From Candidatus Angelobacter sp. Gp1-AA117 (GTDB lineage Bacteria > Acidobacteriota > Terriglobia > Terriglobales > Acidobacteriaceae), in contig QHVI01000030.1 in assembly GCA_003223515.1 (NCBI GenBank), positions 1 to 64,000 on the forward strand: 64,000 nt of DNA, read 5' to 3'. Below are positions 36,573-61,636 of the stretch, piece by piece. The first letter of the stretch is position 1; each line of letters opens with the position of its first letter. The notes under the pieces are model-generated. The model saw only the letters and a program-made list of their open reading frames with translations. It had not been told where the DNA came from and made no database searches. The position numbers and the translations under genes were made by a program.

Positions 36573-37942
36573 GCAACGCCCAATACATTCTCGAAGCCAC
36601 TTATCTTGTTGCGTCCATCCTCTTCGTTCTCGGCCTGAAGGGACTAAGTCATCCTGATTCTGCACGGCGCGGCATGATCATGGCCGCCTGTGGCATGGCC
36701 GCCGCCGTTCTTGGAACACTTTTCCATCCTGAAATCGTCAGCTACACGTGGATTCTCATTGGACTGGTCATCGGCTCCGCCATTGGCATACCCATCGCCA
36801 TGGTTCCCATGACTGCCATGCCACAGCGAACCGCGTTGTCACATGCCTTTGGAGCACTGGCGGCATCCATGGTAGGCGTTGCCGAATACATCATTCACGG
36901 CGCAAACATGGGGCCGATAAAGATGGGAGCCCTGGGATTTGAAGTCATGCTGGGCTCGCTGACAACTACAGGCAGCTTGATTGCCGCCGCGAAGTTGCAG
37001 GAGTTGATGCGCGGAACTCCCATTCAGTTCAAGGGCCAGCATCTCGTGAACCTGCTGCTGGCTCTCAGCATGGCCGGCTGCTATATCGGATGGCTGACGC
37101 ATCCGGGCATGGCTGTTCTGTTTTATGGCATGATCGCCTGCGCGCTGATCTTCGGCGTCCTGCTGGTAGTTCCTATTGGCGCCGCCGATATGCCGGTAGT
37201 GATGTCGCTGTTGAATTCCTATGCAGGTCTTTCATCCGCCGCTACCGGCTTTGTGCTTTCCAACAACGTATTGATCATCGCCGGCACACTCGACGGTTTC
37301 TCCGGGTTCATTCTCTCCATCCTGATGTGCCGTGCCATGAATCGCTCCATGGCCAACGTGCTCTTTGGCGGGTTCGGCGCAGTCGTCGGCACCGATACAG
37401 GCGCAACCGGAACCATGCGCGAGGTCAGTCTGGACGATGTGGCCGTGCAACTTGCCTATGCTAACCAGGTGGTTTTCGTTCCCGGTTACGGCATGGCCAC
37501 AGCCCAGGCGCAGCATGCGGTGCGCGAACTCGGCAACATTCTGGAAGAGCGTGGGGTGGGGGTGAAATACGCGATCCATCCTGTGGCTGGCCGAATGCCA
37601 GGGCACATGAACGTCTTGCTGGCCGAGGCTAATGTGCCTTATTCGTCACTTTACGAGATGGAGCAGATCAACCCCGAACTGCCCAGCACGGATGTCGCGG
37701 TAGTCATCGGCGCGAATGACGTGGTGAACCCTGATGCCCGCGATAATCCCCAGAGTCCGATTGCGGGCATGCCGATTATCGAGGTGGACCGTGCTAAATC
37801 GGTGGTGGTGCTGAAGCGAGGCAAGGGCAAAGGATTCTCCGGCCTGGAGAACCCGTTGTTCTTCAAACCTGTTACCGGCATGCTCTACGGTGATGCTAAG
37901 AGTTCACTTACATCGCTCGTCCAGGCAGTGCAGAAGGTGTAA
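36569..37942 (+). CDS. pntB: NAD(P) transhydrogenase beta subunit
   Basis: 457 residues, GTG start overlapping the preceding stop. The N-terminal half is membrane-embedded (about eight segments). The C-terminal NADP-binding domain III contains PGYGMATAQAQHAVRE, HPVAGRMPGHMNVLLAEA, VVIGANDVVNP and SVVVLKRGKGKGFSG. The complex uses the proton gradient to reduce NADP+ with NADH. A strong hairpin terminator follows. Confidence 0.95.
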   Translation: MSNAQYILEATYLVASILFVLGLKGLSHPDSARRGMIMAACGMAAAVLGTLFHPEIVSYTWILIGLVIGSAIGIPIAMVPMTAMPQRTALSHAFGALAASMVGVAEYIIHGANMGPIKMGALGFEVMLGSLTTTGSLIAAAKLQELMRGTPIQFKGQHLVNLLLALSMAGCYIGWLTHPGMAVLFYGMIACALIFGVLLVVPIGAADMPVVMSLLNSYAGLSSAATGFVLSNNVLIIAGTLDGFSGFILSILMCRAMNRSMANVLFGGFGAVVGTDTGATGTMREVSLDDVAVQLAYANQVVFVPGYGMATAQAQHAVRELGNILEERGVGVKYAIHPVAGRMPGHMNVLLAEANVPYSSLYEMEQINPELPSTDVAVVIGANDVVNPDARDNPQSPIAGMPIIEVDRAKSVVVLKRGKGKGFSGLENPLFFKPVTGMLYGDAKSSLTSLVQAVQKV

Positions 37943-37966
37943 TGGGGTAGTGTCCGTCAATCAATG

Positions 37967-38003
37967 AAATGGGGAGTGAGTTGTGATCACTCCCCATTTT
38001 TAC
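37967..38003 (+). terminator. Rho-independent terminator after pntB
   Basis: Perfect 13-base inverted repeat AAATGGGGAGTGA / TCACTCCCCATTT with a 7-base loop, followed by TTTTTA. It begins 24 bases after the pntB stop. Confidence 0.85.
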
Positions 38004-38581
38004 GTTCAATAGTTAAGATGTTTTAGTCATGTCGTCGTGTCTTGCTTGATGAATGCCGGCCCATGCAACCCCGAAATGTCTCAGGTATAACTTTAGCTCT
38101 AACAACCTATCGCCAGGAAATTCCAGCCATGACAGGAGCAGAGGACAACGGCGCACGTTTTGATTTTTAGGAAATTCGTGCAGTTGTTGGGCAGTGTCAC
38201 GTCTATGAGAAATTTATAAACTCAGGATGCCGAAGGGGAATTCCAATATGGAACCTGCCTCTACGGCTTTGTGTATTGCGGCGAACTGCCGTCATAGAAC
38301 CTCAACACTGCGGAAGTCACCTATCTCGTTGAATTTGTGGATTCAAGCATTTCAATATCAAAGTAATTCCTGGCCCGGTTTTTGTCCCAAAATGGAACCA
38401 GGAAAGCGAAATTCCTCTAAGTCATTCGCCTTATCTGGGTACATGTACTGTCTAACTTTCCATTGGCCAATCTGTACTTCAAAGTAACAATCTACAGCAG
38501 GAAGTTTTCAGAATCCGGATTTTTAAACTATGACGGTTATTTCCGGCATTCCGGGGCTAGAGTCGCGTAGGAGAGACAGAG
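38004..38581. other. 578-base AT-richer region without a convincing gene
   Basis: Base composition is visibly more AT-rich than neighbouring genes. An 86-codon frame (38227-38487) has no domain, no clear ribosome-binding site and an unusual composition, and is not called. It should hold the promoter of the precursor gene that follows. TAGGAGAG at 38567-38574 is a possible ribosome-binding site for an upstream ATG at 38582. Confidence 0.55.
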
Positions 38582-38635
38582 ATGCTCATGAAGAGTACCC
38601 AAGCCTCTCTAAATCAAAGAAAAGGAGAGAGTCGC

Positions 38636-38845
38636 ATGATTGACACCCGGAAAGCAATCAACTTAGCCGACCTCCGTCCTGAGGAACTGGAATCCCGACT
38701 GGAGCTGCAAGTACTGAGCTTTGGCGGTGGCGATGGTAGTGCCACTGGCGGCGGGTTCTTCGGCGGTGGTGACGGCAGTGCCACTGGTGGCGGGTTCTTC
38801 GGCGGTGGTGATGGTAGTGCCACTGGCGGCGGCCTCGTCAGTTAG
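38636..38845 (+). CDS. Candidate RiPP precursor with three 13-residue repeats
   Basis: 69 residues. Residues 1-28 (MIDTRKAINLADLRPEELES and on) look like a charged, helical leader. Residues 29-67 are three near-identical 13-residue units of the form F-GGGDGSATGGG-F (29-41, 42-54, 55-67; the last ends GGGL), then VS. The units are also repeated at DNA level (39 bases, synonymous differences), so coding is preserved. AAAGGAGAG seven bases before ATG 38636 supports this start; ATG 38582 with its own GGAGAG would add 18 residues. An M50 protease follows in the same direction. A structural role for the Gly-rich repeats cannot be excluded. Confidence 0.7.
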   Translation: MIDTRKAINLADLRPEELESRLELQVLSFGGGDGSATGGGFFGGGDGSATGGGFFGGGDGSATGGGLVS

Positions 38846-38855
38846 GCCAGTAACG

Positions 38856-38901
38856 GCCTCGCAAGGTCCTATCTGGTTCGCCGGCAAAAGCTTTGCGAGG
38901 C
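38856..38901 (+). promoter_or_regulatory. Hairpin between precursor and protease that could mask the ribosome-binding site
   Basis: GCCTCGCAA (38856-38864) pairs perfectly with TTGCGAGGC (38893-38901). The right arm includes GAGG and the TTG that could start the protease frame. Folding would lower protease translation relative to the precursor, or act as a partial terminator. Confidence 0.55.
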
Positions 38902-38913
38902 TTTCTCAGAGAA

Positions 38914-40137
38914 ATGCCTACTCATCTTTTCCTTAAACCTGGTTGCACGTTCCATCCATTTCATAATGGATCGGCACTGCGGGATTACATTTTGCGTACT
39001 CCTGACCAGCGACAATTCCGCATCTCAGAATCCGCTTATGCGATATTGAACGACCTAAATCAGGGTAGATCGCTGGAACAGATTTACGCCTCACGGGAAG
39101 ACAAAACGGTCAGCTTTCCCGAGTTTTACCAATTTGTTGTTACCCAATACCGGCCTTTCTTATTAGAGGGTTCCAGCCCCGAATCTCCTGCCGCACCGAT
39201 TGCGAAGCGAATGAAGCTCTTATGGCATCACACGTTGATTTCGCAGACGATTGTGGTGCGCTTGTCCCGGTACTTAAGCAGCGCATACCGGCCGCTGGCG
39301 GTATGGGTAATGCTTGCTCTTATTGCGGCGGCCCATGGGGTGCTCTATCAGGTTTATGCGCCCGGCCAGGGTGCGAAATTTCATCCCAGCCTAGTACTCG
39401 TGGCTGTTTTGTTCAGCGTTGTAGTCCACGAATTTGGCCATTCTTCAGCGGTCTTCAGGTTCGGCGGAACTCCGGGCAGCATCGGGGTGGGGTTATATAT
39501 TCTCTTGCCTGTCCTTTACGCAGATGTCTCTCAAGTCTGGACTTTTCGGCAAAGGCAGAGAGTAGTCGTGGATTTAGGGGGAATATATTTCCAGCAAATC
39601 GTCTTCGCAGTGCTGGCCGTTGCTGCGGTGCTGGCGCATGATCCATCACTGCGCGCGGCCTGCATCTCCATTGACGTGATGACGCTGGTGGCCATCAATC
39701 CGGTATTCCGGTTTGATGGTTATTGGGTGCTGGTGGATTGGCTGGGAATGCCTAATCTGCACCGTCAGGCAACGAACTACTTGCGGCAGTTGATACGCTC
39801 GTTATTAAGGCTGCAAGGGCGGTCGCCACAGCATACTTCGTTGAATCACAGCCGCTTTAAAGCTGCTATTTTCCTGTTCTATGGTATTGCAGGAAATCTC
39901 CTGCTTGCGTTTGTGATTGTCCTCAATTTGCGCTGGATGCAGTCCACTTTCACCGGACTGGTCAGGCATGCGCCCGTCCTGTGGATGCAGGCGCAATTGG
40001 CGATTGCGCGGCATCAGGTGTGGAGCACCATCGATCTGCTGACCGCGCTGTTCTTCCTGCTTGCTTCCGGCCTCACCCTGATGGGCGCGTTATGGCTGCG
40101 TGGCCGGGAAATGCTCAGCTTCAGGCCGCGTCAGTAG
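38914..40137 (+). CDS. M50 (site-2 protease-like) zinc metalloprotease with possible PqqD-like N-terminal segment
   Basis: 407 residues from ATG 38914; a TTG at 38893 would add seven. Residues about 10-80 (FRISESAYAILNDLNQGRSL) resemble the PqqD-like peptide-recognition fold of peptide-modifying enzymes. The rest is a polytopic membrane protein with the zinc motif HEFGH (residues 172-176), LYADVSQVW, and the later NPVFRFDGYWVLVDWLGMPNL, a layout seen in metalloproteases of peptide-maturation loci. It would cut or export the peptide made by the gene 68 bases upstream. Convergent with the orphan permease. Confidence 0.8.
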   Translation: MPTHLFLKPGCTFHPFHNGSALRDYILRTPDQRQFRISESAYAILNDLNQGRSLEQIYASREDKTVSFPEFYQFVVTQYRPFLLEGSSPESPAAPIAKRMKLLWHHTLISQTIVVRLSRYLSSAYRPLAVWVMLALIAAAHGVLYQVYAPGQGAKFHPSLVLVAVLFSVVVHEFGHSSAVFRFGGTPGSIGVGLYILLPVLYADVSQVWTFRQRQRVVVDLGGIYFQQIVFAVLAVAAVLAHDPSLRAACISIDVMTLVAINPVFRFDGYWVLVDWLGMPNLHRQATNYLRQLIRSLLRLQGRSPQHTSLNHSRFKAAIFLFYGIAGNLLLAFVIVLNLRWMQSTFTGLVRHAPVLWMQAQLAIARHQVWSTIDLLTALFFLLASGLTLMGALWLRGREMLSFRPRQ

Positions 40138-40162: not shown

Positions 40163-42562
40163 TTAGTCGTGTCTCAGCATCATGGTCGGATTGGCCCGTG
40201 TCGCGCGATAGGCCGGTAAGAAACTTGCCATTACAGCGCCTAGCATAAGCAGCAGAATCACGGTGCAATAGGTCGTTAAATCAACCGACTTAGTGCTGGC
40301 CGTATCAAACAACTGGCTGCGCAGAAAAGGCGCCACTCCGAGCGAGACCAGCAATCCAATGGCGGTGCCCAGAACTACCAGTTTGAGTCCGGTGCTCATC
40401 ACCATCCGCATGATGCTTGCGCGAGGCGCGCCCAGTGCAATGCGTATTCCAAACTCCTGGCGGCGCTGGGTAACGGAATAGGCCATTACTCCATATACAC
40501 CCAGTACAGCGAGAATCATGGCCAGGCTGGCAAACAGGCCCAGAAGAAAAGTCGAATAGCGTGTGCCCGAAATAGAGCTGTCAATAATTTCGTCCATGGT
40601 AGCCGGTGTGGCGATGGGCTGGTCTATGTCCGCCGTAAGCACCGCGGTTTTACCGGCATACAGGGCGCTCCTGGGATCCAGGTTCGTCCTCGCAATCAGG
40701 GTCATCGATGAACTCGGATACTGAAGCATGCTTAAGTAAAGTTGATAGGAAACGGCTTCAGGACTGCCCGTTTTCATGTCAGGCACAACCCCCACGATTT
40801 GCTGCCAGGTGCTTTGATCGGAGTCAATTTTTATGAACTTGCCAATAGGATCGTCTCCGGGAAATACCTGCCGGGCTGTGCTCTGGCTGATTACCACGGC
40901 TTTTACGCTGTTCTCATTGTCTTGTTCATTGAGGTAACGGCCGGAAATGAGAGACATGCGCATTGTCTCAAAATAATCTGGAGCCACATAATGCTTTTGT
41001 GCCCATGGCAATTGGGCAGGGTCTACTGCCCGTCCTTTTATCTCAAAGGTTCCGGTCTGGCCGCCTCCATACGGCGAGAAGGAAGTGGCTGAAGCAGCAG
41101 AGATGCCAGGTTGTACCCGGAAGTTCTGCAGTACTTTTTGGAAAAACCGTGAACGCTGCTCCGGTTTCGGATATTTTTGTTCAGGTATGGCCACCCGGAA
41201 TGTAAACAGGTTTCTGGTATCAAACCCGTGATCGACATTCAGCAGCTGGACGAAGCTCCGCATCGTGAAAACGGCGGAAATCAGCAAAATAGTGGCGAAG
41301 GCAATCTCGGACACCACAAATATATTGCGCAGGATACCGCTGCCTCCTCCTCCCGTATTTTGCGTAGATTGAGATTCCCGGATGCTGCGAATAATGCTCT
41401 GTCGTGAGACACGCAGCGCGGGGATCAGGCCGAATAGTACCGTGCTCAGCAGTGCAACCACCCCGGTGAAAATAAGCACGTGCCAGTCGATTGCGATGGC
41501 CTCTGGCCTTTGCAATGTAGAAGGCCACAACTTGAAGGCCTGTATTCCAAGAAAATAAGAAAACACCAATGACAGCATCGCTGCGAGAGTAGTCAGAATC
41601 AGGCATTCCACGAGTAATTGCCTGATGAGGCGGCCACGGTTCGCGCCCAGTGCTTCGCGCAGGGCCATTTCCCGGGTCCGTCTGGTGGCCCGGGTCAATA
41701 TCATGTTGGCCACGTTGGCGCAGGCAATCAGCAAGACCATGCCTACAGTGACCAGCAGTACGTTGAGTGCGCGTTTGGCGGTGCCCAGCACAAAATCTGG
41801 CACGGTCACCATGTTCAGCGTGTGTTTATTGGCGGGATACTGGGCATTCAGCCTGGACTGGATGACTTCAAGGTCTTTACGTCCGGAATCAAGGTCGTGT
41901 CCAGCCTTCAATTTTGCGATGGTCCAAATGTAGTTGTAATCTTCGGCCTCGTGCGGTGGGTTGCCTTCCAGCGGCAGCCACACTTCATTCTTTAACGTGC
42001 GGAAATCAGGTGCGTCATTGGGGACAATACCGACAATGCGGTAACGCTTTCCGTCCAAGGTAATGGAGCGGCTGAAAACTTCAAGATCATTTTCGTATTG
42101 CTCATGCCAGAATTCCTGGCTGATCAGGCAGACAGGTTCAGCACCCTTTTCCTGTTCTGAGTCAAGAAAAAAGCGGCCCAGCCGTGCCTGGGTGCCGAAT
42201 ACTTCAAAATAATCACGGGTGATTAATGCAGCGCGGAGTCTCCGTGGCTCTTCAGTATTCGTAAACGTCACACTGGTAAGGTAATATCCGCCCATCTTGG
42301 AGAAAGCCTGGGTTTGAGATCTCCAGGCCGCAAGATCAGGCAGAGAAGTGCCTAAGACGACATTCGGATATTGGGTCCGGATGAAAATTAAGTTATCAGC
42401 GTCTTTGAATGGGCCGTGAAAATTCAATGCACTCACGATGCTGAAAATCAGGGTATTGGCGCCAATCCCGAGCACTAACGTGAGCAGCGCAATAATGGTG
42501 AAACCTGGTGCGCGGCGGAGGACACGGAATCCATAACGAATGTCTCTAAACAGCATATGCAT
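40163..42562 (-). CDS. Orphan ABC permease (MacB/FtsX type; acidobacterial duplicated orphan permease)
   Basis: 799 residues. One membrane helix at 20-45 (FTIIALLTLVLGIGANTLIFS), a large periplasmic MacB_PCD domain, three helices at about 275-390, a second periplasmic domain and three final helices. The duplicated-permease architecture without an ATPase gene nearby fits the ADOP family known from this phylum. Whether it uses a distant ATPase is unknown. It ends 26 bases from the convergent M50 gene; a link to the peptide is possible but unproven. Confidence 0.87.
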   Translation of the reverse strand: MHMLFRDIRYGFRVLRRAPGFTIIALLTLVLGIGANTLIFSIVSALNFHGPFKDADNLIFIRTQYPNVVLGTSLPDLAAWRSQTQAFSKMGGYYLTSVTFTNTEEPRRLRAALITRDYFEVFGTQARLGRFFLDSEQEKGAEPVCLISQEFWHEQYENDLEVFSRSITLDGKRYRIVGIVPNDAPDFRTLKNEVWLPLEGNPPHEAEDYNYIWTIAKLKAGHDLDSGRKDLEVIQSRLNAQYPANKHTLNMVTVPDFVLGTAKRALNVLLVTVGMVLLIACANVANMILTRATRRTREMALREALGANRGRLIRQLLVECLILTTLAAMLSLVFSYFLGIQAFKLWPSTLQRPEAIAIDWHVLIFTGVVALLSTVLFGLIPALRVSRQSIIRSIRESQSTQNTGGGGSGILRNIFVVSEIAFATILLISAVFTMRSFVQLLNVDHGFDTRNLFTFRVAIPEQKYPKPEQRSRFFQKVLQNFRVQPGISAASATSFSPYGGGQTGTFEIKGRAVDPAQLPWAQKHYVAPDYFETMRMSLISGRYLNEQDNENSVKAVVISQSTARQVFPGDDPIGKFIKIDSDQSTWQQIVGVVPDMKTGSPEAVSYQLYLSMLQYPSSSMTLIARTNLDPRSALYAGKTAVLTADIDQPIATPATMDEIIDSSISGTRYSTFLLGLFASLAMILAVLGVYGVMAYSVTQRRQEFGIRIALGAPRASIMRMVMSTGLKLVVLGTAIGLLVSLGVAPFLRSQLFDTASTKSVDLTTYCTVILLLMLGAVMASFLPAYRATRANPTMMLRHD

Positions 42563-50333: not shown

Positions 50334-51233
50334 CTACATAACCCGCATCACAAATCCGCGCGAGAGTATTTTTAACTTCTCCCATACACTGAGCTGGATC
50401 CGTTCCGTGAACACATCATAATTGCGTTCGGCGATTCTTTTCAGCAGGCGGCTGTAGATTTCCACCAGCACCCACAGCGCCGGACGGCTGTCTTCTTCGA
50501 TGAGTTCCATCAGCCACCTGGCGGACTCGTAGTAGCGGCGGGCGCGCTCAGCCTCGAATTCCAGCACCGGCTGAATCGCTTGTGACTGTGGGCCGCCATT
50601 GAGGTTGGCAACCGCAAACTGCTCCGGCGATACGCCGAATTTCTTGAGGTCTTCGACTGGAAAATATAAACGGCCAAGGCCTGCGTCTTCCTTCACGTCA
50701 CGAATGATGTTCGTAAGCTGGAAAGCCAGGCCGCAATCTTCAGCCAGCATCTCTGCCTTTGGGTCGGTGTATCCCCAGATGCGGATGCAGACCAGTCCTA
50801 CGACGGACGCTACGTAGTAGCAGTAATGCTTCAGGTCTTCGAAGGTCTGGCAGACCACCGCAGGAACATCCGATGGCGGAGGGATATCGAGATCGAGGCT
50901 GGTTCCGTAGACCAGTTGTTCAAACAGATCGGCTGGAATCTTGAAACGGCTCTGTGTGTCCGCCAGCGCCATCAATACAGGATCGTCGGTCGGCTTGCCG
51001 CTGAAAACAGCTTGGGCGGATTCCAGCCAGTCGCTCAGCTTCTGCCGTTTCTGTCGGGGATCGGAGCCGGGATCATCAGAGAGATCATCGGCATGACGCA
51101 TGAAAGCATAGACGGCACAAAAGGCGTCACGCTTTTCTGAAGGCAGTACGAGAAAGCCGTAATAGAAATTCTTGGCCGAACGGCGGGCGATGCCTCTGCA
51201 TACCGCATAGGCATGGGCGAGCTGCGAACTCAC
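50334..51233 (-). CDS. hpnD: Presqualene diphosphate synthase HpnD
   Basis: 299 residues from GTG 51233, whose GTGA overlaps the hpnC stop; the longer frame to 51269 would overlap more. Squalene/phytoene synthase fold: FCAVYAFMRHADDLSDD carries the first Asp-rich motif and LTNIIRDVKEDAGLGRLYFP the second. It joins two farnesyl diphosphates to presqualene diphosphate. Assignment as HpnD rests on order after HpnC and on typical length. Confidence 0.88.
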   Translation of the reverse strand: MSSQLAHAYAVCRGIARRSAKNFYYGFLVLPSEKRDAFCAVYAFMRHADDLSDDPGSDPRQKRQKLSDWLESAQAVFSGKPTDDPVLMALADTQSRFKIPADLFEQLVYGTSLDLDIPPPSDVPAVVCQTFEDLKHYCYYVASVVGLVCIRIWGYTDPKAEMLAEDCGLAFQLTNIIRDVKEDAGLGRLYFPVEDLKKFGVSPEQFAVANLNGGPQSQAIQPVLEFEAERARRYYESARWLMELIEEDSRPALWVLVEIYSRLLKRIAERNYDVFTERIQLSVWEKLKILSRGFVMRVM

Positions 51234-52171
51234 AGCAGCTTGCCTGCGGCCGCGCGCAGTACCAGCCACAGCTTGCGTGGTTTGGAGATGACCGGACGAC
51301 TGCTCAGCACATCGAAGCCCTGCCGCTCAATCGCATTCAGAATTTCCTGGCCGCCACGGCTGAACAGTTCCAGATCGACGGCCAGTTCGCGGTTTACCTT
51401 CTTTACCAGCGGCAGGCCACGGTCGAACCATTCACGCGCGCGCTGCACTTCAAATTTCAACATCTCGATGAACTCGGGCGTGGCGCGACGATTGGCAATG
51501 TCTTCTTCGCTAACCCCGAAGCGCTGCAGTGACTCCAGCGGAAGATAGATGCGTCCCTTGCCGTAATCGACGGCCACATCCTGCCAGAAATTGGCGAGCT
51601 GCAGCGCGGTGCAGGTGTAATCGGAAAGCTGCTGCCTCTCGGCATCGCTGTAGCCGCAGAGATAGAGCACCAGGTGGCCGACCGGATTTGCCGAATACCT
51701 GCAATAGCCGAGCACGTCATCAAATGTGGGGAAGCGGGTAACCGTCTGGTCCTGGCGGAAGGCGATCAGCAGATCGGAAAATTCATGCTGCGGAATGCCA
51801 AACTGGCGTACTGTCTGAGCGAGGGCTACAAATACAGGATGCCGCGGAGAGCCGTGATAACAGGCCTCCAGCTCTGCTTCCCATTGATCGAGCAACTCCA
51901 ATGACTGTTGCGCATTGCCTACTTCATCGCCCAGATCATCGGAGATGCGGCAGTAGGCATAGACATTATAAAAATGCTGGCGCAGAGCGGAGGGAAGGAA
52001 CCAGGTGGCAACCGAAAAATTTTCGTAATGGGTGCGCGCCAGCCGCCCGCAATAGCGTTGCGCTTCTTCGAGAGAAGGCGCAGATTCGGGAATGCGGTAT
52101 GACTCCGGCAACGCCTTCCAGCCCAGCGACTGCATGGGTAGCGAAGGGCTGTTGGTGCGCGTTGCTGCCAT
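51230..52171 (-). CDS. hpnC: Hydroxysqualene synthase HpnC
   Basis: 313 residues. The first Asp-rich motif is YCRISDDLGDEVG, and the second NFWQDVAVDYGKGRIYLP. SANPVGHLVLYLCGY is the mark of HpnC-type synthases. It converts presqualene diphosphate to hydroxysqualene. It lies 11 bases downstream of an alcohol dehydrogenase gene, and its stop overlaps hpnD, so the three are probably one operon. Confidence 0.88.
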   Translation of the reverse strand: MAATRTNSPSLPMQSLGWKALPESYRIPESAPSLEEAQRYCGRLARTHYENFSVATWFLPSALRQHFYNVYAYCRISDDLGDEVGNAQQSLELLDQWEAELEACYHGSPRHPVFVALAQTVRQFGIPQHEFSDLLIAFRQDQTVTRFPTFDDVLGYCRYSANPVGHLVLYLCGYSDAERQQLSDYTCTALQLANFWQDVAVDYGKGRIYLPLESLQRFGVSEEDIANRRATPEFIEMLKFEVQRAREWFDRGLPLVKKVNRELAVDLELFSRGGQEILNAIERQGFDVLSSRPVISKPRKLWLVLRAAAGKLL

Positions 52172-52182
52172 AAGTCAGTGGC

Positions 52183-53247
52183 TCAGTGGCCGGGAATGAT
52201 CGCAGTCTTGATCTGGCTTCCCCGCTCGAGCATCTGCTGCAAGACCTGCTTGAGTTTCGAAAGCGGCGCTTCCCCGGTTACATAGTCTGTGCTCTTGATC
52301 TTCTTTTCGGTGATCAGGGCGAATGCTTTGCGCACAGTTTCCGGTGTATGGTGGAAAGTAGCTTTCAGGCTGATCTCGGAGTAGTGCAGCCGGTTTGTAT
52401 CCAACTCCACCTTGGTTCCGGCAGCGCAGCCGCCGAAGAAGTTGGCAACGCCGCCACGGCGCACCATATCCACGGACCACTGCCACGCCTGCGGACGGCC
52501 AACAGCTTCAATCACCACATCTGAGCCGCGGCCTTCCGTGAGGTGAACCACCGCTTCGACGGGATCTTTGGTTTTGGCGATCTGGACGACATCGTCTGCG
52601 CCAAAGCGTTTGGCGGCGCTGACCTGCTCGTCGCGCTTCACCACGGCAATCACTGAGCAGCCGCTCAGCTTGGCCACCTGCATCAGCATCAGGCCCAGTG
52701 GCCCGGCGCCGATGATGGTCACGTTGTCGCCGATATCTGCGCCCGTCTCCTGCAATCCACGCAGGGCGCAGGCCAGGGGCTCAGTCATGGCAGCGGATTC
52801 GAAGCTCACATCATCCGGCAGCGCCAGCATGTTCGATTCGACGATGCGGCGGGGAATCTTGATGTATTCGGCATAAGCGCCATTGTTGAACAACAGGTCT
52901 TCACACAGGTTTTCCTGGTGGCGCCTGCAATAGAAGCAGGAGCCGCAGGGAGCGGAGTTCAGGGCGACGACTCTCATGCCCCGGCGGAAATCTCTTACGC
53001 CCGGACCGACTTCTTCGATCACTCCGGAAAGCTCATGCCCGAACAGGGCGGGAGGCACGATCATGCGCGCGTGATAGCCACGCTTAAAAACCTTGAGGTC
53101 AGTCCCACAAGTCAGGGCCACGTTCACCTTGACCAGCACTTCACCGAATTCCAAAGGAGGTATGGGAACCTTTTCGATTTTTACGTCCTCTTTGCCGTAG
53201 AGGACAGCCGCTGTCATTTGTTTTTTCACTAAGCTTTCTCCACTCAC
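52183..53247 (-). CDS. Zinc-dependent medium-chain alcohol dehydrogenase 1
   Basis: 354 residues from GTG 53247; ATG 53217 is an alternative. Catalytic zinc site: CGTDLKVF and GHELSGVIEEVG. Structural zinc: CGSCFYCRRHQENLCED. NAD-binding ADH fold: VTIIGAGPLGLMLMQVA. It resembles sorbitol/threonine dehydrogenases. The partner gene upstream is of the same family. A link to hopanoid side-chain or carbon metabolism is suggested only by position. Confidence 0.85.
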   Translation of the reverse strand: MSGESLVKKQMTAAVLYGKEDVKIEKVPIPPLEFGEVLVKVNVALTCGTDLKVFKRGYHARMIVPPALFGHELSGVIEEVGPGVRDFRRGMRVVALNSAPCGSCFYCRRHQENLCEDLLFNNGAYAEYIKIPRRIVESNMLALPDDVSFESAAMTEPLACALRGLQETGADIGDNVTIIGAGPLGLMLMQVAKLSGCSVIAVVKRDEQVSAAKRFGADDVVQIAKTKDPVEAVVHLTEGRGSDVVIEAVGRPQAWQWSVDMVRRGGVANFFGGCAAGTKVELDTNRLHYSEISLKATFHHTPETVRKAFALITEKKIKSTDYVTGEAPLSKLKQVLQQMLERGSQIKTAIIPGH

Positions 53248-53269
53248 TTTCGCATCGCATAGCGACGAA

Positions 53270-54394
53270 TCAATCTTGTGTGCCGGACTCCCATCCGATT
53301 CCCGGTTGAATCACGACTTTCATTGAATCGGGACCCGGATGTGCTGCAAGATCAATGGCTCGAATCGCCTGGGTCAGGGGAAATCTGTGGGTGATCAGGC
53401 GGGCAAAATCCACTTCGCCGCTGAAAACCAGCCGGACATTCTCCTCTTGTAAATCAACCGAGGCACTATAGGAACCAAGCAGTATTTTTTCGTCTACGCA
53501 GATGGCTGCCGGATCGATGGCAGCTTCGCTGCGCTGCGTCTGCGCAAACAGCATGACCCTGCCGCCCGGCCGGGCTGCATCCATGGCAGTACAAATCAAG
53601 CTGTTTCCAGCAACTGCCAGGATGACTGCATCTGCGCCACGCCCATCTGTCATCTCCCGCACTCCTCTGAGGAGGTCATCAGAAGAAGCGTCGACATTTT
53701 CCGTAAATCCGTAACTTCTACTTATTGTAAGCCGTTGAGGATACAAATCGGAAGTTACGACAGACGCACCCGTTCGTTTGGCCAATACAGCAAGAATAAT
53801 GCCGATTGGGCCTTGTCCGATCACAAGCACGGTTTCGCCCTTCTGGAGATTGAGCGACGCAATGCCTTTCATGCAGGTGTTGACCGGCTCGATGAAAGAG
53901 GCCTGCTCATAAGAAACACCGTCAGGCAATTTGACTACACCCTTCTGAACGATCCAATCCATCACGCGCACATACTCGGCGAAGCCGCCACCGCTGGCTT
54001 CGAATCCGGCCGTGGCTCCGACCTTTTTGTAGACCGGACACTGCGCAAAAACTTTGTGGCGGCAGTAGTAGCACTTGCCGCAGGGGATGTGATGAAAGAC
54101 CATCACGCGGTCACCGATTTTGAAATGGGTGACGCCTTCGCCAACCGCGACGATTTGTCCGCTGGTCTCATGCCCAAAGATACGCGGCGCGGAATGGGAG
54201 CCGGTAGAAATCTTTTTCAGATCGGTGCCGCAGATGCCGCAGGTGTGCACGCGCACCAGAATTTCGCCGTCGCCGATCTGCGGGGTGGGAACAGTTTCCA
54301 GGCGGACATCGTCTTTGCCGCGATAGACAGCGGCCATCATCTGCCGGGGAATGGCGGATTGAGTTGTTGAAGATTCCTTGGTTGCTGTTTCCAT
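53270..54394 (-). CDS. Zinc-dependent medium-chain alcohol dehydrogenase 2
   Basis: 374 residues. CGICGTDLKKI and GHETSGQIVAVG give the catalytic zinc ligands; CGKCYYCRHKVFAQCPVYKK the structural zinc set; VLVIGQGPIGIILAVLAKR the coenzyme fold. It shares the family of the next gene 22 bases downstream, but the two are diverged. It is the first gene of the operon leading to hpnC and hpnD. Confidence 0.85.
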   Translation of the reverse strand: METATKESSTTQSAIPRQMMAAVYRGKDDVRLETVPTPQIGDGEILVRVHTCGICGTDLKKISTGSHSAPRIFGHETSGQIVAVGEGVTHFKIGDRVMVFHHIPCGKCYYCRHKVFAQCPVYKKVGATAGFEASGGGFAEYVRVMDWIVQKGVVKLPDGVSYEQASFIEPVNTCMKGIASLNLQKGETVLVIGQGPIGIILAVLAKRTGASVVTSDLYPQRLTISRSYGFTENVDASSDDLLRGVREMTDGRGADAVILAVAGNSLICTAMDAARPGGRVMLFAQTQRSEAAIDPAAICVDEKILLGSYSASVDLQEENVRLVFSGEVDFARLITHRFPLTQAIRAIDLAAHPGPDSMKVVIQPGIGWESGTQD

Positions 54395-55110
54395 CTATGC
54401 TTGTGTGCTGCCTATAACCATCTTATTCGTTTTCGATAATTCCTGCTGAGTCATACATCCTCAGTTCACTCAGAGGTCGCAGAGAACGCAGAGTCATTCA
54501 GATCCTTCTGTCATTAACATTGATCCTTTGTCATTCTGAGCGGCGCGCCTCAACCGTGCTTCCTCAGCAATAATCTGTGGCGCGGAGCGAAGAACCCCGA
54601 GAATGCCTATTCCAACCATGCTGCATTAAGGCATTCTCACCAAACTGCCTGATCCGAACTCTTACCTTAAATTCCTCTGCGCCCTCTGCATTGCTATCTT
54701 TCAAATTCTTCGCGACCTGAAAAGAATTTGGCGCTTCTCCGTGACCTCCCTTTTCCTCAGGTATTTGCAGATGAGACTTTGTTTTCGGCGGGAAGGTAAA
54801 TATCGGATCACCTCCACAAAATTCGTATTTGTTTAGCGTGTTTCGCATAATGGAATCAGTAACTTACAAAGCACCATCCGACATTAGCAGGTGATTTCTG
54901 GTACGGCGGCTTCTTGGAAATCACGAAACATTGGGAAATTGACAATTCGCACCCTCCAATAAGGGCGAAAACACGCTAAACAATACCAAAATTCTTATCG
55001 TTTTTCTCCGTGTCTCAGTGGTTAAGGTTTTGATTCTTATTGCCTCTGCTTACTCTGTTCCTCTGTGTTGCAAAGGTTTTGCTTTTGTGTGCGGCTAGGC
55101 TGCGCTGTGA
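54395..55110. other. 716-base intergenic region rich in repeats
   Basis: Contains a CAGAGGTCGCAGAGAACGCA unit (54467-54500), a GTCATTCTGAGCGGCGCGCC element (54530-54605, related to 44090-44185), a CCTCTGCGCCCTCTGC unit (54673-54690) and, at the right end, AAAGGTTTTGCTTTTGTGTG followed by GGCTAGGCTGCGCTG and AAAAGGTTTTGGTTGTG. No gene is convincing. It splits the hopanoid block into two parts. Confidence 0.65.
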
Positions 55111-55848
55111 TTAAAAGGTTTTGGTTGTGACCACACCTGCCGTCTCACTCACCCTCACAACCCGCGAAGGCTGCAACCCGGTCGCGAGATGTTGCTTGAG
55201 CCATGCGCACAGCGCCTGCGCTGCACGGTTGCTGTTTCTGCCCAGCGCAATCATTCTGGGCCACACTGCAGGACGAAGACTCGCCCATGCCGCAAACTTG
55301 CCGGTCTGCAGGTTGCCTTCCGCATCCACAAAGCGATTCAGTGGAGGCATGGGAAAATCCGCTTCATCAGAGATGGCCTTTACGCAGCGAAAGCCAATCT
55401 GCTCCTGGGCCGCAACCGCGGCCACGCCTGCGGCCTCCATGTCTACAGCCAGGGCGTGAAAGCGTTCCACCAGTTGCTGTTTCGATTTACTGCCGGCAAT
55501 TTCACCGGCGCTTACCAGAACGCCTCCGCCGGATTCGCAGCGGTATTCAGAACCGGTGGCGGCATCAACGATTACATTTGGGGTAATCACGTTGGCCACC
55601 TTCAGGCTGCGTATCAACGCGCCGGCCAGACCGACGGAAAGCAACATCTGCGGCCTGTATTTCGCAATAATGGCCTGGGTTGCCGCAGCGGCCGGCCTGG
55701 GCCCGATGCCCCCGGATACTGCAATCACATTGTCATACTCATAGACATGGTACGTATGATCTTTGTGCGTGAGCGCAGAACTCTTCCAGCCTTTCACCAG
55801 CGGGTGCAGTTCGCGCTCCAGCGCGGCGATAATGGCAATCGTGTTCAT
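55111..55848 (-). CDS. hpnG: Hopanoid-associated nucleoside phosphorylase HpnG
   Basis: 245 residues from ATG 55848, which overlaps the hpnA stop (ATGA). It belongs to the MTA/SAH nucleosidase-phosphorylase fold: TIAIIAALERELHPL, the GIGPRPAAAATQAII motif and FHALAVDMEAAGVAAVA with the purine-recognition Glu, then CVKAISDEAD. HpnG removes adenine from adenosylhopane to give ribosylhopane. Confidence 0.88.
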   Translation of the reverse strand: MNTIAIIAALERELHPLVKGWKSSALTHKDHTYHVYEYDNVIAVSGGIGPRPAAAATQAIIAKYRPQMLLSVGLAGALIRSLKVANVITPNVIVDAATGSEYRCESGGGVLVSAGEIAGSKSKQQLVERFHALAVDMEAAGVAAVAAQEQIGFRCVKAISDEADFPMPPLNRFVDAEGNLQTGKFAAWASLRPAVWPRMIALGRNSNRAAQALCAWLKQHLATGLQPSRVVRVSETAGVVTTKTF

Positions 55849-56864
55849 GCGCGCGCGGTGGCGATCTCTCCTGCTACTTCCACGTAACCGTGTGCCAGGA
55901 ACCACTGAATCGCCCGGTGCAGGGCGTCGCCTACGGGAACAACTTTGTATCCAAGCGCATGCTCGGCCTTGCTGGATGAGGCAAACATCTTTTTCCGGCC
56001 CATGCGCACGGCATCCACAGTTGCACGGGGCTCTTTGCGCAAAATCATGCCAGTGAAGAACTGGTCGAAGACGGCAAAGCCCATCGCCACAGCGTGCGGA
56101 ACCTTCATGGTCGGAGAAGGCAATCCAGTAAGGGCCGCGAGTTTGTCGAGAATCTGTTTCAAGGTGAGGTTCTCGCCCCCCAGGATGTAGCGCTCCCCGG
56201 GAACGGCTTTCTCCATGGCCAGCAAATGTCCGCGCGCGACCTCTTTTACGTCAACAACATTCAATCCCGTGTCTACGTAGGCAGGGAAGTTGCGCTTGAG
56301 AAAATCGACGATGATGCGGCCTGTGGGCGTAGGCTTGATATCCTGCTCGCCCACCGGAGTGGTGGGATTTACCACCACAACATTCACGCCGTTTTTTCCG
56401 GCTTCGATGGCGATCTGCTCGGCCATGAACTTGGAACGCTTGTAGTGGCCTACCATTTCTTTGATGGAAACCGGTGAGGTCTCTGAAGCGATGTGGCCTG
56501 TAGTAGTAAATCCCATAGTGGCCACAGAACTGGTGTAGATCACCCGCCGTACGCCGCTCTCCTGGGCGGCGCGGATAATGGCCCGCGTGCCTTCTACATT
56601 GGAGCGATACATCTGTTCGGGATCGCGTACCCACAGCCGGTAATCGGCAGCCACGTGAAAGACGAACTCACACCCCTGCATGGCCTTCTTGAGGGAGTCG
56701 GGATCGCGCAGGTCGCCGGTGACGCGGTCGGCATTCAGGCTGGCGATGTTTTCCATGCGGCTCAAGGGACGCACCAGCAAACGCAGATCAGCGCCGTGCG
56801 CAGCCAATAGCTGCGCAACATGGCTGCCAACAAACCCCGTAGCTCCTGTGACAAGAACTTTCAT
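55845..56864 (-). CDS. hpnA: Hopanoid-associated sugar epimerase HpnA
   Basis: 339 residues of extended short-chain dehydrogenase fold: VTGATGFVGSHVAQLLAAHG at the N-terminus, YTSSVATMG, and KRSKFMAEQ giving the Y/S-containing YxxxK region (HYKRSKF). NPTTPVGEQDIKPTPTGRII is typical of HpnA. It is thought to act in processing the hopanoid side chain; the exact reaction is not settled. Co-transcribed with hpnG. Confidence 0.9.
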   Translation of the reverse strand: MKVLVTGATGFVGSHVAQLLAAHGADLRLLVRPLSRMENIASLNADRVTGDLRDPDSLKKAMQGCEFVFHVAADYRLWVRDPEQMYRSNVEGTRAIIRAAQESGVRRVIYTSSVATMGFTTTGHIASETSPVSIKEMVGHYKRSKFMAEQIAIEAGKNGVNVVVVNPTTPVGEQDIKPTPTGRIIVDFLKRNFPAYVDTGLNVVDVKEVARGHLLAMEKAVPGERYILGGENLTLKQILDKLAALTGLPSPTMKVPHAVAMGFAVFDQFFTGMILRKEPRATVDAVRMGRKKMFASSSKAEHALGYKVVPVGDALHRAIQWFLAHGYVEVAGEIATARA

Positions 56865-56968
56865 GCTTCTCTGCGTCCTTTGCGCCCTCTGCGGTAAATT
56901 CGGAGGCCTTTCTGCTCGGATGAGACTTGAGGCTTACAACACTGGGCAGGGGCAGACTGCTGAAGCTT

Positions 56969-57384
56969 TCAGTCCAGCGCTTCCGGCTTCAGCTCGATAT
57001 TCTTCTCGCCCGCCATTCTCTTTTCCCAGTACTTGCGAGTCCAGGCTTCAAAGCTCTTTCCGGCAGCGGTATCGCGTCCGGTAAAGGCGAGCGCGGCAAT
57101 ATCAGCATAAGCAATCGAAATTTTCTGGCTCGAATCTTTGGGGAACAGCCGCACGACTGAATCCACCAGTGTCCTGCCGGTACGGCGGTCAAAGATGTAG
57201 CCTTCCACTTTGCTGCCATCTTTGCGGGTGATGGTCACATCGCCACGATAGTCGAAGGCTTTCTCCATGGCTTCACGGACTTCATCGTCGCTGGCCATCT
57301 CCGGAATCGAGCCTTCGAGTTGTTCATGGGCAAATCCGGGAACAACTTCCAATGCATCAGGATTCTTCTGATTGGTAGGAGCGC

Positions 57385-57388
<4 letters not shown>
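56969..57388 (-). CDS. Hopanoid-cluster protein of unknown function, small beta-barrel-like
   Basis: 139 residues. The middle part (DVTITRKDGSKVEGYIFDRR, VRLFPKDSSQKISIAYADI) has the strand pattern of a small SH3/Sm-like barrel. It is followed by FTGRDTAAGKSFEAW and a basic helix. The ATGA overlap with hpnH shows translational coupling, so a role with HpnH is plausible. No catalytic motif. Confidence 0.75.
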
Positions 57389-58512
<1,124 letters not shown>

Positions 58513-58535
58513 TCAGTGTCCTCCAATAAGCTCAT

Positions 58536-58653
58536 GTAGCACAGCCGCCCCGGCTGTGCGGATTAACCTCAGCTAATACGTAGCTGCTTTTGCAACAGTA
58601 ATTCGGTCTTGGTTTTCATTTACCCATTTACCAACTTACTCATTTACCCAATC
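58536..58653. repeat. Two repeats between hpnH and shc
   Basis: A TAGCACAGCCGCCCCGGCTG palindrome (58536-58562) and an inverted CATTTACCCATTTACCAACT unit (58617-58653). They fill most of the 143-base gap between the genes. Confidence 0.7.
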
Positions 58654-58655
58654 CC

Positions 58656-60659
58656 CTAGCCTCTTGCATACCCGACTTCTCCCTCACCGTATAACGCCGC
58701 GAACTCACGCGAATACGCCGAGAGGGCAATCAGCGGGAAATAATCGCGGTACAGGTGATAGGCGAGATAAAAGACTCGCGGGAAACCCGTTCCGGTGTAC
58801 TGCTGCTCGTCCCAGGAGCCATCGGCCCTCTGGGTTTCCAGCAGGTATAAGATGCCGCGCTGTACCGAGTCGCTGCGGGTATCGCCCGCCGCCAGCAATC
58901 CCATGATGGCCCAGGCAGTCTGCGATGGAGTGCTCGGCCCGATACCCCGCATCGTGGGCTCGTCATAAGAGCCGCACGTCTCGCCCCAGCCGCCATCAGA
59001 GTTCTGTACCATACGCAGCCACTCTGCCGCCTGCTGGACGTATGGCTCATGATTATCGATGCCGATGGCCTGCAGCCCGCGCAGCACCTGCATGGTGCCA
59101 TAAATGTAGTTCACGCCCCAGCGTCCGAACCAGGAGCCATCCGCCTCCTGCTCGCTGAGGATGAACTGAATCGCCTTCTTTACCTGAGCATCATCATTGC
59201 TGTAACCGTAGCTGGCCAGCATCTCCAGGACGCGCCCGGTGATATCCACGGTCGGCGGATCGAGCATGGCATTGTGATCGGCGAACGGGATGTGTTGGAA
59301 TACCATGCGTGTGTTGTCGCGGTCGAACGACGCCCAACCGCCGCTCTTGCACTGCATGGCGAAGATCCAATGGATGGCGCGCCTGGCGACTTCATACTGG
59401 TAGCGCTCGCGCGGATTATCTACCTGGTCGAGGCCGAGCAGCACCATCGCGGAATCATCCACGTCGGGATAAAACTCGTTATTGAATTCGAAATACCATC
59501 CACCGGGTTCGACCTTGCGCACCTTCACCGCCCAGTCACCCTTTTGCCGGACTTCTTTGCTCAGAATCCAGTCGGCAGCCTGTACCAGCCGGGGATCATT
59601 CTTGGGCACGCCGCTCTCTCCCAGGGCAAACATTGCATACGCGGTGTCCCACACGGGAGACATGCACGGCTGCATGCGGAAGGTTGGTTCGGAATGGTCG
59701 GGAATGCCGTCTTCTTCAATGCCCAGTTTTTCAAACTCATCGAGGGCGCGAATGACCTGCGGATCGTCGGTCGAATAGCCCAGGCAACGCAAGGCAATGA
59801 GTGAGTTGAGGACGGCTGGGTAGATTGCGCCCAGGCCATCAGACATCTCGAAGCGTTCCAGCATCCACTCTTCGGCCTTCTTCAAAGCGCGCTGGCGCAA
59901 CGGACGGATGTGGAACTTCTCGCAGAAATGCACAATGCGGTTCAGCACCAGGAAGAAGTTGCGCCAGGAGATGAGTCTCTCATTCCAGCGCAGGTGCAGG
60001 TGCTTGCCGTGGCGTCCGCCAACGAACAACTCATCAATGCCCATCTCCGCCGGAATCTTCTTGAACGGCTTCTTGGCAAAGGTGATGGAGAGCGGCACCA
60101 GGATGGCGCGCGACCATGACGAAATCTCGTAGATGTTGAACCAGAACCAGTTGGGGAAGAGCACGATCTCCGGTGGAATCGCAGGGACGGCCTCCCAGTC
60201 ATACTGGCCGAGGAAGCACAGATAAATCTTGGTAAAGGTGTTGCACTCGGTGGCCCCGCCCATCGCCAGGATTTTGGTGCGGGCGCGCTCCAGCATCGGA
60301 TGATCGGACTTCGTTCCCATCAGCTTCAGCGCAAAGTAGGCTTTGACCGAGGCGCTGATGTTCGATGGTCCGCCCGGGTAGATGGGCCAGCCGCCATCTT
60401 CATTCTGGTGGCGGATGATTTCCGGCACCGCGCGTTCCAGGCGGCGGCGGTTGCCGGTCCCTAACAGCGTGTGAATAGCGATGTAATCAGATTCCAGGGT
60501 AGTGTCGGCTTCCAGTTCTCCGCACCAGTAGCCGTCAGGGTGCTGTTTCGAGAAAAGATGATTGCGGGCTGCCTCGATGCCAACGGCAACGCGGCCCAGC
60601 ATGTCATCAATTTTTCCAAATAGCATTTGCGCGGGATACCCGTCGAACTTCTTGCTCAT
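58656..60659 (-). CDS. shc: Squalene-hopene cyclase
   Basis: 667 residues from ATG 60659, two bases after the ispH stop; the longer open frame through ispH is not coding. It cyclises squalene to hopene/hopanol. The catalytic motif DVDD is at residues 399-402. QW repeats are visible as DGGWPIY, GGWASFDRDNTRM, DGSWFGRWGVNYIYGT, DGGWGETC and DGSWDEQQYTGTGFP. Length is normal. ispH, shc and hpnH follow each other in one direction. Confidence 0.96.
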   Translation of the reverse strand: MSKKFDGYPAQMLFGKIDDMLGRVAVGIEAARNHLFSKQHPDGYWCGELEADTTLESDYIAIHTLLGTGNRRRLERAVPEIIRHQNEDGGWPIYPGGPSNISASVKAYFALKLMGTKSDHPMLERARTKILAMGGATECNTFTKIYLCFLGQYDWEAVPAIPPEIVLFPNWFWFNIYEISSWSRAILVPLSITFAKKPFKKIPAEMGIDELFVGGRHGKHLHLRWNERLISWRNFFLVLNRIVHFCEKFHIRPLRQRALKKAEEWMLERFEMSDGLGAIYPAVLNSLIALRCLGYSTDDPQVIRALDEFEKLGIEEDGIPDHSEPTFRMQPCMSPVWDTAYAMFALGESGVPKNDPRLVQAADWILSKEVRQKGDWAVKVRKVEPGGWYFEFNNEFYPDVDDSAMVLLGLDQVDNPRERYQYEVARRAIHWIFAMQCKSGGWASFDRDNTRMVFQHIPFADHNAMLDPPTVDITGRVLEMLASYGYSNDDAQVKKAIQFILSEQEADGSWFGRWGVNYIYGTMQVLRGLQAIGIDNHEPYVQQAAEWLRMVQNSDGGWGETCGSYDEPTMRGIGPSTPSQTAWAIMGLLAAGDTRSDSVQRGILYLLETQRADGSWDEQQYTGTGFPRVFYLAYHLYRDYFPLIALSAYSREFAALYGEGEVGYARG

Positions 60660-60661
60660 GG

Positions 60662-61636
60662 TTACTCCGCAGCGACAGCAGGAGCTGCTTGTATCGCTTC
60701 TACGATTTCGGGCGGCAGGCCAAAACGGACGTTTTCCGGCATGACCTCCACCTCTTCGATCCTGGTAAAGCCCTTGGCCTTGAGGAACTCGACCGCCTGT
60801 TCCACCAGCACTTCCGGAGCAGAAGCCCCGGCCGTGAGTGCAACAGTTTTTATGCCGCTGAGCCATTCCGGCTTGATGTCGTCAGCGGTATCAATCAGGT
60901 AGGAAGGTGTACCGAGATTGGTGGAAACTTCCACCAGCCGGTTGGAATTGGAGCTGTTTTCCGAGCCGACCACCAGCAGCATTTCGGCTTGGTGGGCCAC
61001 GTCTTTCACCGCTGTCTGGCGGTTCTGCGTGGCGTAGCAGATGTCCTGCGCATGCGGCCCCTCGATCAATGGGAATTTCTTGCGCAGAGCTTCAATAATG
61101 TCTTTGGTTTCATCCAGGCTGAGCGTGGTCTGGGTAATGTAAGCCACGTGGCTGGGATCGGGAACATGCAGCCTGTCCACCTCCTCCACGCTGCCCACAA
61201 CCTGGGTCACTTCAGGAGCTTCGCCCAGCGTGCCGATCACTTCATCATGATCGCGGTGGCCGATAAGAATAATGCTGTAGCTGCCCTTGGCGTACTTCAC
61301 GGCTTCCACATGGACCTTGGTCACCAGCGGGCAGGTAGCATCGATCACCCGCAGGTCGCGCAGCTTGCTGGCTTCGCGCACTGTGGGCGAGACGCCGTGG
61401 GCGCTGTAGATCAGCCTCTGGCCGTCTGGAACTTCATACACCTCATCGACAAAGATCGCTCCCTTAGCCTTTAACTCTTCTACCACGTAGCGGTTATGGA
61501 CAATTTCTTTGCGCACATAAATGGGCGGGCCAAAGGCGTCCAGGGCGATACGGACGATATCGATGGCGCGAACCACACCGGCGCAAAATCCTCGGGGTTT
61601 GAGGAGGAGCAAAGTCTTAGTTTCAGGTGCTGTCAT
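60662..61636 (-). CDS. ispH: 4-hydroxy-3-methylbut-2-enyl diphosphate reductase
   Basis: 324 residues. The three cysteines that bind the iron-sulphur cluster are Cys18 (GFCAGVVRAI), Cys102 (DATCPLVTKVH) and Cys200 (DICYATQNRQ). It makes isopentenyl and dimethylallyl diphosphate in the MEP pathway, feeding squalene. Being first in front of shc links precursor supply to hopanoid synthesis. Confidence 0.96.
   Translation of the reverse strand: MTAPETKTLLLLKPRGFCAGVVRAIDIVRIALDAFGPPIYVRKEIVHNRYVVEELKAKGAIFVDEVYEVPDGQRLIYSAHGVSPTVREASKLRDLRVIDATCPLVTKVHVEAVKYAKGSYSIILIGHRDHDEVIGTLGEAPEVTQVVGSVEEVDRLHVPDPSHVAYITQTTLSLDETKDIIEALRKKFPLIEGPHAQDICYATQNRQTAVKDVAHQAEMLLVVGSENSSNSNRLVEVSTNLGTPSYLIDTADDIKPEWLSGIKTVALTAGASAPEVLVEQAVEFLKAKGFTRIEEVEVMPENVRFGLPPEIVEAIQAAPAVAAE

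Follow-up and report, generated by a model that had tools for sequence, protein, structure and literature searches.

The window analysed here, a 64,000-nucleotide stretch of DNA from Candidatus Angelobacter sp. Gp1-AA117, contains a two-gene cassette comprising a precursor open reading frame (ORF) and an M50 protease gene. Both lie on the forward strand, flanked by pntB, which ends at 37942 and is the upstream neighbour, and by a gene for a MacB/FtsX-like permease (40163-42562, reverse strand) that is convergent with the cassette. A class I/II aminotransferase gene is found at 42840, 4.9 kb beyond pntB. Directly after pntB, a terminator-like hairpin on the forward strand (37966-38000; 14 bp stem and T run; fold of -22.6 kcal/mol, z -6.97), which is absent from the list returned by a consensus scan, suggests that the cassette forms its own transcription unit. 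The gap between pntB and the precursor (37943-38580) is AT-richer than its surroundings, as originally described, with a GC content of 44.7% compared with 55.6% for the window, and is presumed to be the promoter-bearing region; a consensus search of this gap gave no sigma-70-like site, and the radical SAM cluster discussed below found no match in it. The precursor lies 68 nt upstream of the protease gene on the same strand. Between the precursor stop and the protease start, a second hairpin (38855-38902, forward strand; -26.5 kcal/mol, z -2.33) has a 13 bp outer stem and no strong U run. It is possibly an attenuator or mRNA-stabilising element and could set the ratio of precursor to protease product.

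The precursor ORF (forward strand) extends from 38582 to 38845 (87 aa) or, when read from the second in-frame ATG, from 38636 to 38842 (69 aa). As GGAG is located 8 nt 5' of each ATG (38570-38573 for the ATG at 38582, 38624-38627 for the ATG at 38636), translation may start at either; the Shine-Dalgarno-like AAAGGAGAGA before the second can be read directly at 38621-38630. From this second ATG, the peptide begins with a leader of the ELExRLE class, MIDTRKAINLADLRPEELESRLELQVLS (38636-38719), recognised by the 30-leader profile described below. Translation and codon comparison define the Cys-free core of 41 aa (38720-38842) as three FGGGDGSATGGG units and a tail, with the leader/core border placed provisionally at 38719/38720. 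The units occupy 38720-38758, 38759-38797 and 38798-38836 (39 nt each including the next codon, which encodes F, F and L, respectively), and the peptide ends in LVS. The original prediction of a leader-like region followed by three units that differ by synonymous bases only was borne out, given that six of the 12 codons per FGGGDGSATGGG unit vary across the three copies and all six differences are synonymous. For five transitions and one transversion, this outcome has a p of about 0.001 under a naive model with synonymous fractions of 0.33 (transitions) and 0.24 (transversions). Each unit holds Asp-Gly, a pair generally prone to succinimide and isoaspartate formation, and it is a guess that this chemistry is used in the peptide units.

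The adjoining gene (38914-40137, forward strand) encodes an M50 (site-2 type) intramembrane metalloprotease of 407 aa fused to a RiPP recognition element (RRE), an assignment based on NCBIfam, Pfam and predicted structure. The nearest NCBIfam model was daptide_HExxH (E 5.7e-35; 121.2 bits, cut-off 300), followed by LiaK/YydH (46 bits, cut-off 225, residues 158-288 only). The Pfam M50 match was weak, and the N-terminus was unreported by the Pfam PqqD model at E<=1. The window protease shares 21-29% overall identity with its 71 aligned relatives and has kept its catalytic residues: across the 72 sequences, H172, E173, G175 and H176 are invariant in the HEFGH zinc-binding motif (residues 172-176; 39427-39441), as are N262, P263, D268, G269, Y270 and W271 in the NPVFRFDGYW motif (residues 262-271; 39697-39726), in which Asp268 is presumed to be the distal zinc ligand. 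The only PDB sequence match of the protease family profile at E<=1 was 3b4r, the site-2 protease of M. jannaschii (E 0.005).

An AlphaFold2 model of the protease, built on the 72-sequence alignment (pLDDT 87.7), places strands and three helices at residues 5-85, a low-confidence linker at 86-98 and a helical remainder. Residues 1-88 (38914-39177, forward strand) are modelled as an RRE (PqqD-like) winged helix, also when predicted alone (pLDDT 87.4). A Foldseek search with this isolated domain against 350,542 chains placed three TbiB1-leader structures, a lasso B1-leader complex and the LynD heterocyclase in its first five ranks (probability 0.96-1.00, TM 0.56-0.60, E 0.015-0.13, the best E being weak); in the rows listed next, GdmN and other chains begin at rank 6 with a probability of 0.77 and below. 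TbiB1, LynD and lasso B1 are RRE-bearing proteins. The full model returned nothing at E<=0.001 with Foldseek; among the best 50 matches listed, LynD (probability 0.97) and the TbiB1-leader structure (0.90) aligned over about 90 columns, and site-2 proteases were absent. Realignment of the same candidates with VIA-align, in which a Z of about 8-9 is middling by the tool's own note, ranked SpoIVFB first (Z 9.2, 173 aligned, 4.8 A, model residues 110-399) and 3b4r second (Z 8.3, 165 aligned, 4.2 A, 104-396), followed by TbiB1 (5v1u_A; Z 8.2, 2.5 A, residues 5-86) and TigE (Z 8.2, residues 1-92), with unrelated helical rows beginning at Z 6.8. The model thus resembles a site-2 protease over residues 104-399 and an RRE over residues 1-92, and the M50 membrane protease with a PqqD-type N-terminal segment that had been proposed from the sequence is also what structure prediction gives.

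Site-2 proteases also act in regulated intramembrane proteolysis. A use unrelated to RiPPs, with a regulatory site-2 protease and a low-complexity repeat ORF that stands upstream by chance, would fit SpoIVFB as best structural match, this known function of the class and the low complexity of the repeat. It would also make coincidences of both the predicted RRE fold and the leader-profile result given below, and is considered highly improbable.

Relatives of the protease were collected with a five-sequence alignment from 84,980 species genomes, which yielded 174 stretches, of which 164 were relatives. The best 80 of these 164, together with four plasmid loci and a same-genus contig, comprise the 85 relative loci discussed here. 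The first link to the leader was seen by eye in Flavobacterium saliperosum (L140), in which two small ORFs precede the protease (ELEERLELKNWVGGGDGG... and similar). A strict leader motif was found within 1.5 kb upstream in the sense direction in 22/81 loci, in antisense in 0/81 and downstream in 0/82, and a looser motif gave 22, 3 and 0 matches, respectively. The leader profile was made from 30 precursor leaders of other genomes, with that of the window excluded, and its training precursors were picked by a motif first noticed from the resemblance of the window peptide to L140. Against 1,757 six-frame segments of the window, the window peptide was its sole significant match (E 2e-4; next E 5.6). 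Among 23,567 segments from the 85 relative loci and seven pntB control loci of the genus, 84 matches at E<=0.5 fell in 60 of the 85 relative loci (81 upstream on the protease strand, three downstream and none antisense), with no match in the control loci. Loci outside the profile training had a leader match in 35/60 cases, some of them near-copies of training loci; several loci are near-copies (e.g., L134/L137, L125/L136, L098/L101, L062/L088/L089), so the locus counts are not independent. The leaders are also alike beyond the motif (window, INLADLRPEELESRLELQ; L132, LNLADLDVQELEQRMELA; L119, LNLDEIDVEELEKRLELA), and NCBIfam gave no family match for eight such precursors, with one chance match at E 0.14.

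The leader-profile results indicate that peptide and protease are a real pair within a broad ELExRLE-leader family, which spans Bacteroidota, Pseudomonadota, Cyanobacteriota, Balneolota, Ignavibacteriota, Chloroflexota, Acidobacteriota and others. The window pair has the traits of this RRE-M50/ELExRLE family, namely a leader-profile match, an RRE with an HExxH...D site-2 core, and a precursor upstream on the same strand. The family is related to the daptide and epipeptide proteases, lies under both curated cut-offs and is apparently unnamed. Open-access literature, which is weak as evidence of absence, gave no paper on the ELExRLE leader family or the repeat core; the accessible text of the RRE-Finder paper contains no description of this family, with 'M50' absent from its main text (PMC7470986), and the family is likewise not described in the accessible part of PMC12670281. 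Within Flavobacterium the protease occurs in 10/249 genomes, and a leader-motif search of ten further Flavobacterium loci with 1.5 kb flanks gave one match, which is not Gly-rich. Protease matches in the family genomes lie mostly in frames of about 700 aa, which is another architecture. A quick tree of 80 proteases, not taken as evidence, puts the window protease on a long branch within a weak, poorly split region of mostly radical-SAM loci.

The core presents a different picture from the leader. Thioether and lanthionine chemistry needs Cys, and is therefore out for the window core. Cys is present in 79 of 83 relative cores, the exceptions being those of L094 and L104 and two of L140; the two precursors of L179, outside the 83 counted, are also Cys-free despite the radical SAM genes there. 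A DNA search for core relatives with a DGSATGGG-type pattern matched in 6/396 genomes of the phylum (three times in the source genome and once in each of the other five), and a backwards control pattern matched once. The matches in the five other genomes lie in frames unlike small precursors, have no leader-profile match and were thus taken as chance. With the peptide as protein query, 29 of 200 family genomes, the source included, matched at E<=0.1, the best other match (E 0.0014) having an internal stop. Of 88 loci, one has a Gly-rich ORF (>=28% Gly over the final 40 residues) in the 2.5 kb preceding the protease, and tandem cores occur among the 84 leader-profile matches only in L104 (Pro/Thr) and, weakly, in L140. 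The L104 example (L104:6407-6640), a cyanobacterial leader-type precursor with a Pro/Thr-rich tandem repeat core, is the clearest other tandem among these matches. Judged by sequence, the window precursor appears homologous to other precursors in its leader only, with core relatives absent from what was searched, so the function of the core is read from its composition.

These results bear on the original prediction of a peptide-maturation pair, which named as arguments against itself a lack of related peptides beside M50 proteases in other genomes and a structure prediction without a PqqD-like fold. Both were looked for: the same kind of leader stands beside protease relatives in 60/85 loci by profile, and the PqqD-like fold is predicted, which supports the pair. 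It is by its anatomy (leader homology, RRE and protease), not by its chemistry, that the pair is shown, and the homology found to other precursors ends with the leader.

Enzymes that could modify the peptide are common beside the relatives. Genes within 7 kb were grouped into neighbour classes by single linkage, and one to three members of each class were checked for their family. The classes are a radical SAM cluster in 43/85 loci (two proteins tested, both closest to NCBIfam TIGR04463 and under its cut-off), lipid A acyltransferase-like clusters (3/3 tested members match PF03279) and a squalene-cyclase-like cluster in 20/85 loci (weak NCBIfam/Pfam matches in the one member tested). In each of the 36 relative loci whose strict-motif precursor lies no more than 4 kb away, a candidate modifying enzyme is encoded within about 7 kb: 35 have one by cluster, and L094, the last, has a B12-binding radical SAM and a protein resembling a radical SAM/SPASM protein of L179; an unmodified product would therefore be an exception. 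When all 85 loci are counted, with or without a precursor, 17 had none of the three clusters.

Several of these neighbours are of interest in themselves. Squalene/oxidosqualene-cyclase-like proteins (L140:10187-12151; cluster 3), of about 650-750 aa where read, recur beside the RRE-M50 and radical SAM genes and are an unexpected partner for a peptide pathway. PF03279 proteins are encoded near RRE-M50 genes at L082:3427-4377, L120:9586-10557 and L071:3281-4435, and the acyltransferase-like loci of Pseudomonadota have precursors with ELEARFEMEA-like leaders and short Cys-containing tails; such neighbours might mean lipidated peptides. The products of L094:2768-4138 and L179:4360-5613 show similarity to the radical SAM maturase cluster over its N-terminal part (for L094, the best stretch is about residues 26-119). 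The Pfam radical SAM domain is absent from L094:2768-4138, the one tested, and the two are possibly pseudo-radical-SAM or scaffold partners.

No such enzyme is recognisable beside the window pair, in line with the original prediction. The window matches to profiles of seven neighbour clusters were limited to a hopene cyclase with an adjacent DUF3463 radical SAM protein, 17 kb off, and a weak TPR-type match at 7.3-8.8 kb. The genes at 57-61 kb were considered as tailoring enzymes because of these matches and were set aside, as Pfam identifies a full hopene cyclase and a radical SAM protein with DUF3463; together with two squalene/phytoene synthases they are ordinary hopanoid-type genes (50337-60881, reverse strand), and the DUF3463 gene is presumably HpnH-like. 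Apart from this gene at 57.4-58.5 kb, the window has no CX3CX2C ORF of at least 100 aa. Pfam analysis of 20 neighbour genes (28.0-54.4 kb) gave nothing recognisable as a RiPP enzyme, the products being aminotransferases, FAD and zinc dehydrogenases, transhydrogenase, a SET-domain protein, squalene/phytoene synthases and similar. An azole (LAP) product was rejected, given that the source genome has 0 matches to YcaO (PF02624), the cyclodehydratase, and control genomes matched.

In the absence of a recognised tailoring enzyme beside the pair, its product is most likely either left unmodified or altered by an enzyme whose gene lies elsewhere (in trans). A full RiPP pathway of the latter kind, with for example a radical SAM enzyme acting on Phe/Asp/Thr or an Asp-Gly enzyme elsewhere in the genome, gains from the 36/36 strict-motif loci with candidate enzymes and from the content of the source genome, which has two SPASM-domain proteins over the cut-off (C165, C16) as well as two further radical SAM proteins with weak similarity to the maturase of the same-genus genome G153 (E 1.8e-7 and 5.9e-6). 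It is held to be unlikely, given that none of these four genes has a leader-motif peptide within 1.5 kb on either side, one of them resembles MoaA by eye, and YcaO is missing from the genome.

Comparison within the genus gives a further view of the cassette. The protease is present in 2/9 genomes, the source genome and G153. In the latter, contig C555 encodes a 477-residue radical SAM protein, a precursor that includes ELDDRLDMSVDPLTGILSATATKPTVPPTNGNCGNVFCC (ELDDRLDM) and a related RRE-M50 protease, truncated where the contig stops. The pntB site was compared across eight other genomes, of which G566 matched over 42 bases only and was left out. In four (G050, G153, G198 and G184), pntB is followed by the same aminotransferase gene as in the window, at a distance of about 1.2, 1.3, 0.1 and 0.7 kb, respectively, and this protease is absent there; in G134, G170 and G106 neither that aminotransferase nor the protease was found within 1.5 kb of pntB. 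From this comparison, the cassette looks accessory at the pntB site. These data have also been weighed for the alternative that the pair is a remnant of a larger cluster, kept as a passenger after loss of its maturase: the version in G153 comes with a radical SAM gene, the pair sits where pntB and the aminotransferase gene are close neighbours in four relatives, and the AT-rich upstream gap of about 640 bp could be a scar. However, both ORFs and the catalytic residues are intact, the differences between units are all synonymous, the radical SAM cluster is unmatched in the window bar the DUF3463 gene 17 kb off, and the core is without the Cys found in 79/83 relative cores. A remnant is thus improbable.

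The pair is probably a minimal RiPP-like cassette, in which the RRE-M50 protease recognises the leader, cuts, and releases a Cys-free three-unit core, and the structure matches and the neighbour-gene scan agree with this explanation. In the sequence of leader binding, cleavage and export that we infer by analogy, leader INLADLRPEELESRLEL would dock on the N-terminal RRE of the M50 protease, and the precursor would be kept at the membrane for the intramembrane zinc protease to cut it just C-terminal to ELExRLEL. The putative product, presumed to have a biological role, would be a Cys-free Gly/Asp-rich core of roughly 41-45 residues with three near-identical 13-residue units, released to the membrane or outside. 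The best reading is that of a minimal RiPP-like peptide, leader-peptidase-only or trans-modified. A more specific proposal, held tentatively and with somewhat less than even confidence, is a bare two-gene pathway in which the RRE-site-2 protease needs no partner to mature and release a Cys-free, three-unit Gly/Asp-rich peptide. It would stem from a large, apparently undescribed ELExRLE family whose single RRE-protease platform and leader grammar serve several chemistries (SPASM-type radical SAM, B12 radical SAM, lipid A acyltransferase-like and squalene-cyclase-like, across many phyla). The window pair is a variant member of this family, with a tandem Gly-rich Cys-free core and no recognised tailoring enzyme adjoining.

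The shared leader ties short ORFs of many phyla to one RRE-fused intramembrane protease, which offers a handle for mining RiPP loci with differing tailoring enzymes. If the protease alone matures the peptide, the pair would offer an assay system of two genes, with no modifying enzyme, for leader recognition, cleavage and perhaps release. It also poses the question of why a Gly-rich triple repeat is kept at the protein level.

Among known systems, the daptides provide a close parallel. The accessible text of the daptide study describes an RRE-fused site-2 protease, MpaP, that removes an ELExMEAP-type leader (PMC10036551). MpaP (NF041824) and the window protease share an N-terminal RRE joined to a site-2 protease, with short ELEx-type-leader ORFs nearby. 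However, the window protease (121.2 bits) is under the MpaP-type cut-off of 300 bits, the window peptide ends in LVS and not in the invariant C-terminal Thr, the leader has ELESRLELQ in place of ELExMEAP, and neither an iron-dependent alcohol dehydrogenase (PF00465) nor a class III aminotransferase (PF00202) is among the 20 neighbours. The class I/II aminotransferase gene at 42840 is also beside pntB in relatives without the cassette.

TMcins likewise use a site-2-clan protease, TmcP (DUF3267), to remove the leader at the membrane; as set out in the available portion of that report, they differ from the window pair in a precursor with a transmembrane helix and two conserved Cys, and TmcP belongs to PF11667 (PMC13252029). 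Other RRE-M50/ELExRLE loci carry radical SAM, lipid A acyltransferase-like or squalene-cyclase-like genes, whereas the window pair lacks all three and its core is a Gly-rich tandem. By appearance, the nearest core is that of F. saliperosum L140, which is Gly-rich right after the leader (ELEERLELKNWVGGGDGGDGATGGDGG...) with an adjoining RRE-M50 gene, but lacks a regular 13-residue unit and has radical SAM and squalene-cyclase-like genes after the protease.

The epipeptide protease EpeP/YydH/LiaK (NF058609) is, like the window protease, a member of M50, and EpeP is thought, in the accessible text of its description, to cleave and export a small peptide (PMC10885120). The window protease reaches 46 of 225 bits with this model, over residues 158-288, and has no radical SAM gene adjoining and no epimerising radical SAM. 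The window protease would, by analogy, work as the daptide and epipeptide proteases do, but reaches neither curated cut-off.
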